Below, in pieces: positions 2,454 through 8,570 of a DNA stretch of 64,000 nucleotides; position 1 is the first letter of the stretch, and the number at the start of each line of letters is the position of its first letter. The translations under genes and the position numbers were made by a program. The notes beneath the pieces were generated by a model. The model saw nothing but the letters and a program-made list of their open reading frames with translations, had not been told where the DNA came from and made no database searches. The stretch covers positions 1 to 64,000 of IMG/VR virus record IMGVR_UViG_3300032053_000043, one strand, 5' to 3'. Origin of the DNA: a virus.

Positions 2454-2665
2454 AAACTCCAAGGTCCAAAGTCGAAAGTCCAAGGGCGCTGACCAACGGT
2501 GAACTCGCCACGTTGATCGACGCCCTGCGAATGGCGGCCAGCGATGCCATGCGCCACATCATGGCGGTCGGTCCCTGGGACTTGATGTTCGGCACCTGGC
2601 ACGGCGCACGAAAGCGCTACCTCGCCCTGCGCCGCAAATTGCTGGCCTGGGAGCGTGCCGCGTGA
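2450..2665 (+). CDS. Hypothetical 71-residue protein
   Basis: Starts at ATG 2450 behind GGAAGGAGGAGG, a very strong ribosome site. The first ~12 codons (KTPRSKVESPR) are encoded by a heptamer minisatellite, so the N-terminus is probably unstructured. The rest is mainly helical (LATLIDALRMAASDAMRHI) and ends in a basic Trp-containing helix. No family recognised. The stop overlaps the next gene, suggesting a coupled operon. Confidence 0.6.
   Translation: MKTPRSKVESPRALTNGELATLIDALRMAASDAMRHIMAVGPWDLMFGTWHGARKRYLALRRKLLAWERAA
2459..2486. repeat. Heptamer minisatellite (CCAAAGT-type, 4 units)
   Basis: Four consecutive seven-base units, CCAAGGT, CCAAAGT, CGAAAGT and CCAAGGG, lie at the 5' end of a coding region. 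It is one of five unrelated heptamer arrays in the GC-rich parts of the window. Confidence 0.8.
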
Positions 2666-2916
2666 AATCCGCGACCTGTCCCGGCGGAGCCTGGATCCGA
2701 AATCTGCAATCCGCAATCGACTGGCTCTTCGGCTGCCCGCACCCGCGCGAGAGCTTCCCACAGCGCCGGCGCGACCGCCGCAGGCGCATCCAGCACCATC
2801 GCCCGAGTTACCGCGTCTGCCTGGGCTGCGGGCGCGAGCGCGACTATACCCTGCTCGACGCTCCGCAGCCTACAGCCTACGGCCCACGGCCCACAGCCAT
2901 CTTGGAGGTCCGATGA
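2662..2916 (+). CDS. Small Cys/His protein of a phage zinc-finger type
   Basis: An 84-residue product beginning at GTG 2662, overlapping the previous stop. It contains CPHPRESFP and, about 30 residues later, CLGCGRE. This resembles small phage and bacterial proteins of the form C-x-H-R-x-S-F-P followed by CLDCGKE. The fold is probably a zinc ribbon and the function unknown. Codons near both ends run through heptamer arrays, so the tails are low in information. Confidence 0.6.
   Translation: MKSATCPGGAWIRNLQSAIDWLFGCPHPRESFPQRRRDRRRRIQHHRPSYRVCLGCGRERDYTLLDAPQPTAYGPRPTAILEVR
2695..2722. repeat. Heptamer minisatellite (ATCCGCA-type, 4 units)
   Basis: Units ATCCGAA, ATCTGCA, ATCCGCA and ATCGACT follow each other without gaps inside the 84-residue gene and encode IRNLQSAID. 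The core differs from the array at 2459 but the seven-base period is the same. Confidence 0.75.
2866..2900. repeat. Heptamer minisatellite (CAGCCTA/CGGCCCA, 5 units)
   Basis: Units CAGCCTA, CAGCCTA, CGGCCCA, CGGCCCA and CAGCCAT run contiguously at the 3' end of the 84-residue gene, just before the ribosome site (TTGGAGG) of the Gam-like gene. Confidence 0.8.
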
Positions 2917-3428
2917 AAACCAAACCACTAGCCGATCTCGACGCCGTCAACAACGCACTCCGCCGGAAGTTGTTGGCCGAGGTGGCCATCGAAGCCATCG
3001 AGGGCCAGCTGGAGCTGGCCATCACGCCGCTCGAGGCTGCGGCCCACGACGAGGCGGCGCCCCACCGCGAGAAGATCGAGGGACTCGATGCCGCCATGCA
3101 CCTCTTCTGGGAGGCGCACCGCGACGGCCCGATAAAAAGCATCCCGCTGACTTTCGGCGTCATTGGGGAACGCAAGGCGCCCGAGAAAACCAGCCTGCGC
3201 AAGGGCTGGAAGATGTCCACCATCGTCGGGTTGATCCAGGGGCTCGGCGATTGGTGGTACGGAAAATTCGTGCGCCAGCCGGAGCCGGAGGTCAACAAAG
3301 AAGCCGTGCTGATGGCCAGCGACGACGAGCTGGAAAAGCTGCGCGCCTGCGGCGTTTCCATCGACCCCGGTGAGCCGGAGTTTTACGCCAAAACGGATCG
3401 CACCACGCTGGCCTCGGCCATGACCTAG
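2913..3428 (+). CDS. gam: Mu Gam-like host nuclease inhibitor
   Basis: A 171-residue protein with the plan of the Mu Gam family: an N-terminal coiled helix (residues ~5-60), then the signature LTFGVIGERKAPEKTSLRKG and a tail ending VSIDPGEPEFYAKTD. Mu Gam is a Ku-like dimer that coats double-stranded DNA ends and blocks exonucleases such as RecBCD. Here it would protect linear or replicating phage DNA. The ATG at 2913, behind TTGGAGG, starts the conserved domain; upstream in-frame codons run through low-complexity DNA and were rejected. The stop is TAG. Confidence 0.85.
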   Translation: MKTKPLADLDAVNNALRRKLLAEVAIEAIEGQLELAITPLEAAAHDEAAPHREKIEGLDAAMHLFWEAHRDGPIKSIPLTFGVIGERKAPEKTSLRKGWKMSTIVGLIQGLGDWWYGKFVRQPEPEVNKEAVLMASDDELEKLRACGVSIDPGEPEFYAKTDRTTLASAMT

Positions 3429-3503: not shown

Positions 3504-3584
3504 ATGCGAACATTGATTCTGCCGATCGTTTTCGCGGCCACTGCCCTGGCACAGTACGCCGCGCGGAGGGCCGCATGCCGATGA
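3504..3584 (+). CDS. Possible 26-residue hydrophobic peptide
   Basis: Begins at ATG 3504 seven bases after GAGAGGAG. MRTLILPIVFAATALAQ reads like a cleavable signal peptide or single membrane anchor, followed by a short basic tail. It ends exactly where a heptamer array begins. It may be the remnant of a longer exported protein disrupted by the minisatellite. Confidence 0.35.
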   Translation: MRTLILPIVFAATALAQYAARRAACR

Positions 3585-3611
3585 AGGCGGAAGGCGGAAG
3601 GCGGAAGGCAG
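3584..3611. repeat. Heptamer minisatellite (AAGGCGG, 4 units)
   Basis: Three exact AAGGCGG units and one AAGGCAG, between a small hydrophobic ORF and the next gene. Confidence 0.85.
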
Positions 3612-4497: not shown

Positions 4498-5808
4498 GTG
4501 CCGGCCTATTACAACGAAAACGATCCCTTCGCGGCTGCCTGGCTGCCGGAACTGATGAAGGCGGGAGTGATTGCCCATGGTGAAGTCGATGAACGCGACA
4601 TCCGAGAAGTGCAACCCGAAGACGTGCGCGGGTTCGCCCAATGCCATTTCTTCGCCGGCATTGGGGTCTGGAATTACGCTCTTCGCCGAGCCGGATGGTC
4701 AGACGATACTCCCGTTTGGACAGGGAGTTGCCCATGCCCGCCGTTCTCCGTCGCTGGGAAGAAGAAGGCATGTCCAGCGTGCAAAGGCCGAAACCCTGTG
4801 CCGCATGTTGGACGAACTGGCTTCTTCGTATGCTGCGTATGCGGCCACGAATGGTTTGCCGATGCCCGCCATCTATGGCCGGAAATGTGGCGACTTATCC
4901 GCGACGGACGACCGCGATGTTTCTGCGGAGAGCAGGTTGCGGGAAGTGACGGCGAAACTTGGCTCGCGGCTGTTCGTGCTTCGTTGGAAATACTCGGATA
5001 TGACATTAGGGCCGCGAGTCTTAACGCTGCGGGCCTCGGGGCGCCGCAGATCCGGCAGCGGCTATACTTCCTGGCCGACACCGCAGGTCAGCGAAGCAAC
5101 CAGGGGCGGGCAAGCCAAACGGGCAGGCGGACGGAAACAAAACCTCAACGATTTCGCGATGCTGGCGAGTTGGCCGACGCCGCAGAGCCACGACGAACGG
5201 GAGCGCGGGAACGTGATGGCGGACCATCATCACTTCCCCCACGACCTGAGCAATGCGGCGAAGATGGCGAGTTGGCCGACGCCGCATACGCCGGACGGCG
5301 GGCGCATTCGGAAATCGCAACCGCATGGGAGCAAACGGCAGGCAGACATCGAGACCGTGGCGAGTTGGGCCACGCCGCGATCGGTCGAGGCGGGACACTC
5401 AACGGGCAATCCGGATCGAGCAGAAGACAGAAAATCGAGATTGGAAGACCAGGTCTTTCTGGCGACTGGTTGGGCCACGCCGAGATCAACGGACGGCGAG
5501 AAGCGTGGGCCGAATCAGCACGGCAGCAAGGGCGATCTGATGCTGCCGAGCCAGGCTTCACTAACGGCTTCTGGGCCGACGCCGAATGGCTCCACTGCCG
5601 CCCCGAGCCAGGATACCCCGACGGCCGCTGGCGGGCAGTTGAACCCGGCACATTCCCGCTGGTTGCAGGGGCTCCCGCCCGAGTGGGACGCCTGCGCGGC
5701 TACGGTAACTCTCTCACGGCGCCGGTCGCGCAAGCCTTCATAGAGGCATATGTTGACGACTGCGGTGAGTACACCCCGGAGTTGGACCGAGAAAAGGGAC
5801 CCGAGTAG
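4498..5808 (+). CDS. DNA cytosine-5 methyltransferase with zinc-ribbon insert
   Basis: A 436-residue enzyme with C5-methyltransferase motifs in order: motif I FFAGIG (51-56, AdoMet), motif IV SCPCPPFS with catalytic Cys80, a motif VI equivalent GEQVAG (144-149), motif VIII QIRQRLYF (184-191) and motif X GYGNSLTAPVAQAF near the C-terminus. Between IV and VI a Cys-rich insert (CPAC, CCVC) looks like a zinc ribbon. The middle region has repeats of GELADAA type. It would transfer a methyl group to cytosine, probably protecting phage DNA from restriction. It starts at GTG 4498 right after the previous stop and ends with TAG. A second long frame overlaps most of it. Confidence 0.9.
   Translation: MPAYYNENDPFAAAWLPELMKAGVIAHGEVDERDIREVQPEDVRGFAQCHFFAGIGVWNYALRRAGWSDDTPVWTGSCPCPPFSVAGKKKACPACKGRNPVPHVGRTGFFVCCVCGHEWFADARHLWPEMWRLIRDGRPRCFCGEQVAGSDGETWLAAVRASLEILGYDIRAASLNAAGLGAPQIRQRLYFLADTAGQRSNQGRASQTGRRTETKPQRFRDAGELADAAEPRRTGARERDGGPSSLPPRPEQCGEDGELADAAYAGRRAHSEIATAWEQTAGRHRDRGELGHAAIGRGGTLNGQSGSSRRQKIEIGRPGLSGDWLGHAEINGRREAWAESARQQGRSDAAEPGFTNGFWADAEWLHCRPEPGYPDGRWRAVEPGTFPLVAGAPARVGRLRGYGNSLTAPVAQAFIEAYVDDCGEYTPELDREKGPE
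4571..5743 (+). CDS. Overprinted +1-frame protein with SWPTP repeats
   Basis: A 390-codon open frame lies wholly inside the methyltransferase gene, shifted by one base. It has repeated SWPTP motifs (ASWPTPQ, ASWPTPH, ASWATPR, TGWATPR) and a C-terminal QLNPAHSRWLQGLPPEWD, which resembles the LTPxExxRLQGFPDxW motif of C5 methyltransferases. I recall phage proteins of this type in databases, usually annotated hypothetical or methyltransferase-associated. The SWPTP repeats are the same DNA as the LADAA repeats of the other frame. It is either a genuine overlapping gene or a long by-product of biased codons. No clear ribosome site is seen. Confidence 0.45.
   Translation: MPMVKSMNATSEKCNPKTCAGSPNAISSPALGSGITLFAEPDGQTILPFGQGVAHARRSPSLGRRRHVQRAKAETLCRMLDELASSYAAYAATNGLPMPAIYGRKCGDLSATDDRDVSAESRLREVTAKLGSRLFVLRWKYSDMTLGPRVLTLRASGRRRSGSGYTSWPTPQVSEATRGGQAKRAGGRKQNLNDFAMLASWPTPQSHDERERGNVMADHHHFPHDLSNAAKMASWPTPHTPDGGRIRKSQPHGSKRQADIETVASWATPRSVEAGHSTGNPDRAEDRKSRLEDQVFLATGWATPRSTDGEKRGPNQHGSKGDLMLPSQASLTASGPTPNGSTAAPSQDTPTAAGGQLNPAHSRWLQGLPPEWDACAATVTLSRRRSRKPS
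5752..5808 (+). repeat. Direct repeat flanking the methyltransferase, right copy
   Basis: Encodes the C-terminal VDDCGEYTPELDR and the TAG stop. It is the partner of 4441-4497. Confidence 0.7.
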
Positions 5809-7326: not shown

Positions 7327-7382
7327 CAATGACAAATCCGAAAAACCACCCTCTCCTCTCTTTCATTGAGGAGGATACCACC

Positions 7383-8570
7383 ATGGCCCGAAGACCTCTG
7401 CAGAAAAAGGGATACCTGAAACAGATTGGCCCGAGTTGGTTTTTGCGCTGGCATGAGGATGTTCGCCTGGCCGATGGCACGATAGCGCGCGCCCACCCCG
7501 GCCGCGTGATCGCCCCGGCCGAAGGCCCCGGAGCCCTCAGCCACCGCGAAGCCAGCCGGCTCGCCTGGACCGAAATTCTCAGCAAACTCGATAGCTACAC
7601 CTGCCACCCCGGCTCCATCATCACCTTGCGCGAATTCATCGAGGCGAAATTCCAGCCCCAGGTCATCAACAAGCGGCACCCCGGCGGACAAGAACATTGG
7701 AAAACCATGCTGGGCCACATCCTGCCGGCGCTGGGCGCCATCGAACTGCGCGCCTTCAGCCTTGACCGCGTACAGCGGTTCCTGGACGGCAAGGCTCAGG
7801 AGACCTTCAGGGGCCGGCGGTATTCGGTCCAAACGCTCGTTCACTTACGGAACGCCCTCACCAGGATCTTCCGCCGCGCACGCAACCTGGACCTTTTCCC
7901 GGCCGACCGGACGCTGCCCACCGACGGCCTTGAACTACCGCCCATGCACCGGAAGGAACGGGGCTCCCTGACCATCGGCCAGGTGCGGGGCCTGATGGCG
8001 GTCCTGGATTCGCCCGTCCGTGAGCTCGTCCTGTTTCTGAGCGTGACCGGCTGCCGCATCAGTGAGGCGCTGGGGCTCCGGTGGGACCGGGTAGACTTCG
8101 ACCGCGCGCAGATCGTAAAGCGTGAGACATTCCGCCGCGGGCGGTGGGGGACCCTGAAGTCGGACGCCAGCCGGCGCAACATCCCGGTGCCCGATGAACT
8201 GCTGACCGAACTCGCCCGGCTGAAGTCGAGAACGCGCTGGAACGCCCCCGGGCACCCCGTCTTCGCCTGCCAGAGCACCGGCACGCCGCTTTCCGCGGCC
8301 AACATCCAGGCGCGCGTCCTGAAGCCCAAGGCGAGGCTGCTGGGTGTGCCGGCGGGGGTCTCTTGGCATTGGCTGAGACACGCCAACAGCACATGGCTGG
8401 CGGCCGGCGGGGTCAACACAACCGACCGGCGGCTACTCCACGGGCACACCTCGGACGAAATGGACGCACTCTACACGCACGGCAACCCGGAGGCGGTTCG
8501 CCAGGCCATGCAGTCGCTCACCAAGTCACTGCTGAAAGGGGATTCCGATGGCCGAAACATCGTTATGTGA
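7383..8570 (+). CDS. int: Tyrosine site-specific integrase
   Basis: A 395-residue tyrosine recombinase. The N-terminal part contains a SAM-like core-binding domain (LGAIELRAFSLDRVQRFLDG, then VHLRNALTRIFRRA). The catalytic domain shows the Arg box (TGCRISEALGLRW), a Lys region (TLKSDASRRNIPVP), the HWLRH box and the terminal LLHGHTSDEMDALYTHG with the nucleophilic Tyr. It would integrate the phage at a host attachment site. ATG 7383 was chosen because GAGGAGG precedes it; ATG 7329 has no such site. No attP core is identifiable without the host sequence. The GC-rich composition matches neighbouring genes. Confidence 0.92.
   Translation: MARRPLQKKGYLKQIGPSWFLRWHEDVRLADGTIARAHPGRVIAPAEGPGALSHREASRLAWTEILSKLDSYTCHPGSIITLREFIEAKFQPQVINKRHPGGQEHWKTMLGHILPALGAIELRAFSLDRVQRFLDGKAQETFRGRRYSVQTLVHLRNALTRIFRRARNLDLFPADRTLPTDGLELPPMHRKERGSLTIGQVRGLMAVLDSPVRELVLFLSVTGCRISEALGLRWDRVDFDRAQIVKRETFRRGRWGTLKSDASRRNIPVPDELLTELARLKSRTRWNAPGHPVFACQSTGTPLSAANIQARVLKPKARLLGVPAGVSWHWLRHANSTWLAAGGVNTTDRRLLHGHTSDEMDALYTHGNPEAVRQAMQSLTKSLLKGDSDGRNIVM

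Follow-up and report, generated by a model that had tools for sequence, protein, structure and literature searches.

A second reading frame inside a phage C5-cytosine methyltransferase gene probably encodes its target-recognition subunit

Can one segment of DNA specify two proteins at once, and if so, what might the second one do? The question is raised by a methyltransferase gene in the window analysed here, a stretch of 64,000 nt that makes up positions 1 to 64,000 of the IMG/VR virus record IMGVR_UViG_3300032053_000043 (75,103 bases). The first-pass annotation had pointed out that GAGTTGGCCGACGCCGCA reads as ELADAA in the methyltransferase frame (frame C) and as SWPTP in the +1 frame (frame T), which is correct for two copies, from 5167 and from 5269. 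The long open second frame that it described is present as well (4571-5743, 390 codons without a stop), as is its LNP..GLPPEW block, LNPAHSRWLQGLPPEW. Its count of six motif copies holds if variants are included (three SWPTP, one SWATP, one GWATP and one SGPTP) and fails for exact SWPTP. Two alternatives had been offered, selection on both frames or an annotation artefact, and the former proved right, in that +1 stops are few and synonymous sites are constrained among homologues. We conclude, with a probability of roughly 0.8, that the two subunits of a C5-cytosine methyltransferase are encoded by one and the same DNA, T being the recognition subunit. The features of the locus are as follows.

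4498-5808, + strand: frame C, Dcm-like C5 methyltransferase, putative catalytic subunit (436 aa, GTG start)
4563-4567, + strand: GGGAG, candidate Shine-Dalgarno sequence, 9 nt before ATG 4577 of T; putative in the window
4571-5743, + strand: frame T, +1 ORF, putative target-recognition subunit, probably starting at ATG 4577; stop 5741-5743
4732-4749, + strand: motif IV of C, PCPPFS with the catalytic Cys; onset of strong synonymous constraint
4901-5038, + strand: helix plus beta-hairpin of T (AF2 block means about 67-89), proposed docking element
5038-5061, + strand: motif VIII of C, GAPQIRQR
5072-5584, + strand: cassette array of T, WxTP/GPTP units starting at 5072, 5171, 5273, 5366, 5471 and 5573
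5083-5547, + strand: linker of C across the cassettes; open, with drifting amino acids, predicted disordered
5633-5689, + strand: C5 motif IX-like block of T, GQLNPAHSRWLQGLPPEWD, so named for its resemblance to single-chain relatives
5692-5715, + strand: motif X of C, LRGYGNSL; overlaps the end of T

Frame C belongs to the C5-cytosine methyltransferases: it matches PF00145 at 1.5e-11 and PHROG 363 at 1.4e-61, and it carries motifs I, IV (Pro-Cys, in the form PCPPF), VI (GEQV), VIII and X. The AF2 model of C, built with 82 sequences, places core residues 1-200 mostly at pLDDT 80-97, most of residues 209-349 below 50, and motif X in a folded helix, part of it at about 91; a Foldseek search with this model retrieved M.HhaI (9.4e-7) and M.HaeIII. 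Between motifs VIII and X we find neither a target-recognition domain (TRD) nor a motif IX belonging to C, because the segment is neutral in this frame and predicted disordered and the IX-like block lies in T. Frame T matches PHROG 1008 (6.2e-26) as well as PHROG 31772 and 27243, and searches of Pfam and NCBIfam with it returned no match. Frame C also has an insertion (4771-4851) that is missing from ten aligned phage homologues; it is mostly predicted folded and contains two CxxC pairs (CPACKG...CCVCG) in a zinc-ribbon-like arrangement.

Around the gene, positions 2655-3425 match Mu Gam (PF07352, 3e-16) and positions 7350-8567 match phage integrase (PF00589, 1.3e-15). A perfect 7-bp tandem repeat, GAAGGCG in 3.9 copies, occupies 3583-3609. 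The apparently non-coding segment 6070-6552 holds 13 copies of AGCGGC spaced 33-53 nt, the spacings differing mostly by multiples of 5 and the spacers resembling strings of NNNAC pentamers. At about 28000 the G+C content drops from about 0.60-0.62 to about 0.50, and it stays low to near the end of the window.

The homologue set comprised 80 IMG/VR and 80 genome loci fetched by C-frame patterns only, plus 12 phage loci, of which L009 and two others came through T-frame hits. Stops were counted in the 155 genes in which C is open from motif I to motif X. Another 15 genes fell outside this test when their motif X was not matched by the pattern; 13 of these carry a differently spelled motif X, and in the remaining two, L058 and L110, C ends early. 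The C frame of L058 stops right after the Pro-Cys of motif IV and that of L110 inside the cassettes, suggestive of broken genes or sequence errors. L024, L157 and L170 were also missed, by the FFAG pattern. When synonymous codons are shuffled gene by gene, 406 stops are predicted in the +1 frame of the 155 homologues; the real sequences have 2. The +1 frame is stop-free in 150/155 genes (153/155 without the last codon), and the +2 frame averages 12.2 stops. Frequent +1 stops in homologues, which the first-pass annotation had named as evidence against selection on the second frame, are thus not what we observe. The window alone has 0 +1 stops against 4.3 expected (p = 0.005), and its third frame has 14 across the C gene. 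When 257 flanking ORFs were treated in the same way, 3193 stops were observed against 3337 expected. In the converse comparison, with T codons shuffled over the cassettes, the C frame has 0 stops against 269 expected in genes preselected with C open, and the third frame has as many stops as expected.

For synonymous sites, 148 genes were aligned by codon and the codon usage of flanking ORFs served as the expectation; the check that had been proposed for the methyltransferase frame came out in favour of strong constraint among homologues. The mean excess synonymous identity of C is 0.08 for codons 3-36, 0.17 for codons 37-57 and 0.03 for codons 58-79, and from codon 80 to about codon 406 it reaches 0.44, 0.50, 0.49 and 0.64 in blocks. 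Many synonymous positions past codon 80 are near invariant: among genes with the commonest residue, codon 178 is GCG in 137/137 and codon 381 is GTT in 140/140.

Sorting substitutions by their effect in both frames allowed selection to be read region by region in the 117/170 genes with all landmarks, the pairs being ungapped, 80-97% identical and not independent. Before motif IV, the N-terminus is under selection in C (dNN/dSN 0.18) and neutral in T (dNN/dNS 1.14). Both frames are selected across motifs IV-VIII (C 0.22-0.42, T 0.37-0.71) and again at the C-terminus (0.22-0.49). Inside the cassettes T is selected (dNN/dNS 0.17, dSN/dSS 0.23) and C is not (1.30, 1.83), which goes beyond the first-pass annotation in placing selection there on the SWPTP frame only. 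Pairs 70-85% identical gave the same order of rates. In the catalytic and C-terminal regions, doubly silent changes are common (SS 0.76-0.79) and changes silent in C only are rare (SN 0.17-0.28), so the constraint acts on a second protein. Our reading is that C has to be read across the cassettes to reach motif X and that the residues encoded there hardly matter. Openness beyond codon usage and purifying selection on the alternative frame together make this a dual-coding gene, and we regard the +1 ORF 4571-5743 as confirmed to be a second gene overprinted on the methyltransferase gene, one that is presumably translated.

These data leave next to no room for the idea that T is a mere shadow of C, its frame opened by GC-rich codon usage and its similarity inherited from the methyltransferase. 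Similar C proteins do yield some +1 similarity and most homologues are GC-rich, but a shadow ORF produced by GC content is refuted by the stop counts (2 against 406, with flanking controls near 1), by the synonymous constraint in C, by the selection map, with cassettes conserved in T and not in C, and by frames that are open in AT-rich phages too. It is just as hard to believe that the constraint falls on the DNA or RNA, through recombination sites between cassettes or RNA structure, rather than on a second protein. The DNA of the repeat around TGGCCGACGCC is conserved and might act as a recombination joint; nevertheless, the third frame contains its expected stops, and the disparity between doubly silent and C-only-silent changes means that the frame-resolved substitution rates largely refute constraint at this level.

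The family has an internal start signal for T. Asp is found at codon 37 of C in 137 genes, and 101/137 encode it as GAT before G, which creates an ATG in frame T, where 51 would be expected. This ATG is accompanied by a Shine-Dalgarno sequence of at least 4 nt in 70/137 genes (8.0 expected), of at least 5 nt in 45 (1.6 expected) and of 6 nt in 23 (0.6 expected), the typical start region being GAAAGGAGCATTGAGGATG. In the window, codon 37 of C is not Asp and there is no ATG at the family start position; to judge from the sequence, T probably starts at ATG 4577, preceded by GGGAG at a distance of 9 nt.

A scan of IMG/VR for VEWMMG[FL]P, which we take to be a T-frame motif, returned at least 120 loci. 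Type A, T ORFs without motif X, accounts for 58 distinct sequences among the matches listed, 2 of these misfiled: L196 and L274, candidates for a T without C, proved to be chains in a single frame, with T in the +1 frame of the chain, and were dropped. Among the matches listed, 56/56 type A ORFs lie in the +1 frame of a stop-free C frame, and the 8 type A loci at GC below 0.45 have 0 C-frame stops where 57 are expected. Type B, in which the FVEWMMG block shares a frame with motif X, comprises 49 distinct sequences among the matches listed; in 43/49 of them PTP-like matches are more numerous in the +1 than in the own frame, and the +1 frame of 35 linkers has 2 stops against 24 expected. Two fused chains, L236 and L207 (type C), carry the cassettes in-chain between motif VIII and the FVEWMMGLP block, which is the TRD position, and each matches the family of C (PHROG 363) as well as that of T (PHROG 1008). 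At the split loci L195 and L205 (type D), C ends after motif VIII and has motifs I-VIII only, and an overlapping +1 gene carries the hairpin, the cassettes, IX and X. With hhalign, window-type T aligned to fused L207 over the cassettes only (probability 94.8%) and to the split T of L195 over the IX block only (probability 12.7%). Given that other phages have T and C joined in a single chain, or as tandem split genes with IX and X on the T side, the reading we favour for T is that of the TRD subunit in a two-subunit methyltransferase. L009 (Komagataeibacter phage phiKX1), annotated as hypothetical proteins only, has an intact T and a C without the usual C-terminal sequence around motif X.

The 427 cassettes extracted from 258 T-type sequences form 141 single-linkage clusters, 101 of them singletons and the largest, probably chained, with 132 members. 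Sixteen clusters have five or more members; the majority of them turn up at more than one position, and some include both type A and type B sequences. The cassettes are thus exchangeable units, similar in length, that recur in different contexts, as in a multispecific TRD array. The second cassette of the window, WPTPQSHDERERGN..., is related to one in L243, a locus found through the T pattern; Tandem Repeats Finder, run on the window, did not report the cassette array. Motifs are divided between the frames, with the cassettes and the motif-IX-like block in T and motifs I-VIII and X in C. The earlier hunch that the LNP..GLPPEW block is a C5-methyltransferase motif gains support, in that a similar block directly precedes motif X in single-chain relatives, and when ten single-chain sequences and two split ones are combined in a profile, the IX-like block and motif X are collinear with M.HhaI 269-307. 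The piece by itself gave no significant match to M.HhaI (i-Evalue 1.8e3), and it is the single-chain relatives that support its identity as motif IX.

Modelled by AF2 alone, with 127 of 147 extracted sequences (phage-record loci and near-duplicates left out), T reaches a pLDDT of 57.5 and a pTM of 0.29. Confidence is high mainly in the helix and hairpin at residues 109-154 and in an insertion helix specific to the window, and because the rest of T is poorly predicted no TRD fold is visible. Failure to fold alone fits a subunit in need of a partner, and does not prove it. Comparison of the T profile with PDB sequences yielded nothing relevant; a dipeptidyl aminopeptidase match (E 0.65) was weak and taken as chance.

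Might T be a coding frame and yet not a subunit of this kind? Programmed frameshifting could fuse the catalytic N-terminal portion of C with T's cassettes and motif IX in a single chain, as a second enzyme form, and the natural single-chain fusions L236 and L207 lend this some appeal. We consider it improbable, however: the conserved internal Shine-Dalgarno sequence and ATG upstream of motif IV would serve no purpose if the product arose by frameshifting, the constraint on T extends over motifs IV-VIII too, and motif X would require a second shift back. We are similarly doubtful that T is a separate protein doing something else, for example as an anti-restriction protein or as a regulator or inhibitor of the enzyme, and has only its DNA in common with the methyltransferase. 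Such a role would suit a protein without matches in Pfam or NCBIfam whose structure, modelled alone, is of low confidence, but in fused and split relatives T sequence occupies the TRD position, accompanied by motifs IX and X, and C itself offers no TRD that is selected or folded.

A two-subunit enzyme is the simplest account, because C lacks a TRD and motif IX, and T has modules for the TRD position together with an IX-like block. Dual coding, selection per region, the start signal of the family, the conserved architecture and the natural fusions and splits were computed directly; the model that we build on them is as follows. Frame C would yield a catalytic subunit consisting of motifs I-VIII, a meaningless but open linker and motif X, and frame T, read from its own internal ribosome-binding site, would yield a recognition subunit with a docking hairpin, a row of cassettes of ~30 residues and the motif-IX-like block. 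T would assemble with C and so fill the small (target-recognition) domain that C is missing, each cassette probably recognising one target sequence, and, with cassettes being swapped between phages, the enzyme may protect phage DNA against several restriction enzymes. More broadly, we lean towards the view that this is a very large and ancient class of phage C5 methyltransferases with its specificity in another frame of its own catalytic gene. The C frame would provide an open, otherwise free linker for cassette recombination, the specificity part would have moved among nested, fused and split states, the cassettes would be uncharacterised DNA-recognition modules, and many databases would hold one half only.

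PHROG 1008 (T) and PHROG 363 (C) are both labelled DNA methyltransferase and kept as separate families, with no mention of the shared DNA. By tblastn, T occurs in 137 phage records and C in 286; among the matches listed, most records annotate one frame, and both are annotated in K1ind2, PhiXhv-5 and Paenibacillus phage Leyra (gp61/gp62). Many relatives are probably half-annotated, since one frame is usually recorded. M.EcoHK31I-like genes were also sought on plasmids (queries T and C of L177, T of L230 and T of the window), and no named relative appeared among the matches listed, which are annotated as cytosine methyltransferase, as hypothetical or not at all. A literature search with little reach into subscription journals found no description of the overlap in phages; how widely the overlap occurs, the selection map and the assignment of the TRD seem to be new. 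We judge it unusual for phages so diverse to retain a same-strand overlap of ~1 kb, and in this case selection can be told apart for the two frames in each region. Should T be the recognition subunit, anyone who followed the annotations and cloned only C would obtain an enzyme that is inactive or lacks specificity; predictions of phage methylation and host range would suffer, and the cassettes would be natural, exchangeable modules for DNA recognition.

Among known enzymes, M.AquI is described as a C5 methyltransferase split into polypeptides with motifs I-VIII and IX-X (PMC3404938), and on that description M.AquI (CYCGRG) is like the split loci L195 and L205. Unlike in M.AquI, the window keeps motif X in C and has T nested within the C gene. 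In the phages SPbeta, phi3T and SPR, multispecific C5 methyltransferases have several short exchangeable recognition units of about 40 residues each, in frame within one chain; T shares the exchangeable units, but has them in the +1 frame. The precedent for a split enzyme of this kind is M.EcoHK31I, whose small subunit is reportedly encoded in another frame inside the large-subunit gene, both subunits being said to be needed. It is termed naturally split in PMC3439449, and PMC3404938 places motifs I-VIII and X in the large subunit and motif IX in the small, with the predicted TRD assigned to the large one. By these descriptions, M.EcoHK31I (YGGCCR) resembles C and T in subunit layout, a large subunit with I-VIII plus X and a small one with IX, the IX block here not being significant against M.HhaI alone. 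M.EcoHK31I is a restriction-modification enzyme with one site, whereas here we have phage enzymes with several cassettes in many lineages, and a selection map. The recognition part would also sit in the small subunit here, in contrast to the large one in M.EcoHK31I as given in PMC3404938. The selection map argues for a TRD in the small subunit and against the large-subunit placement, which is thereby called into question for split enzymes such as M.EcoHK31I.
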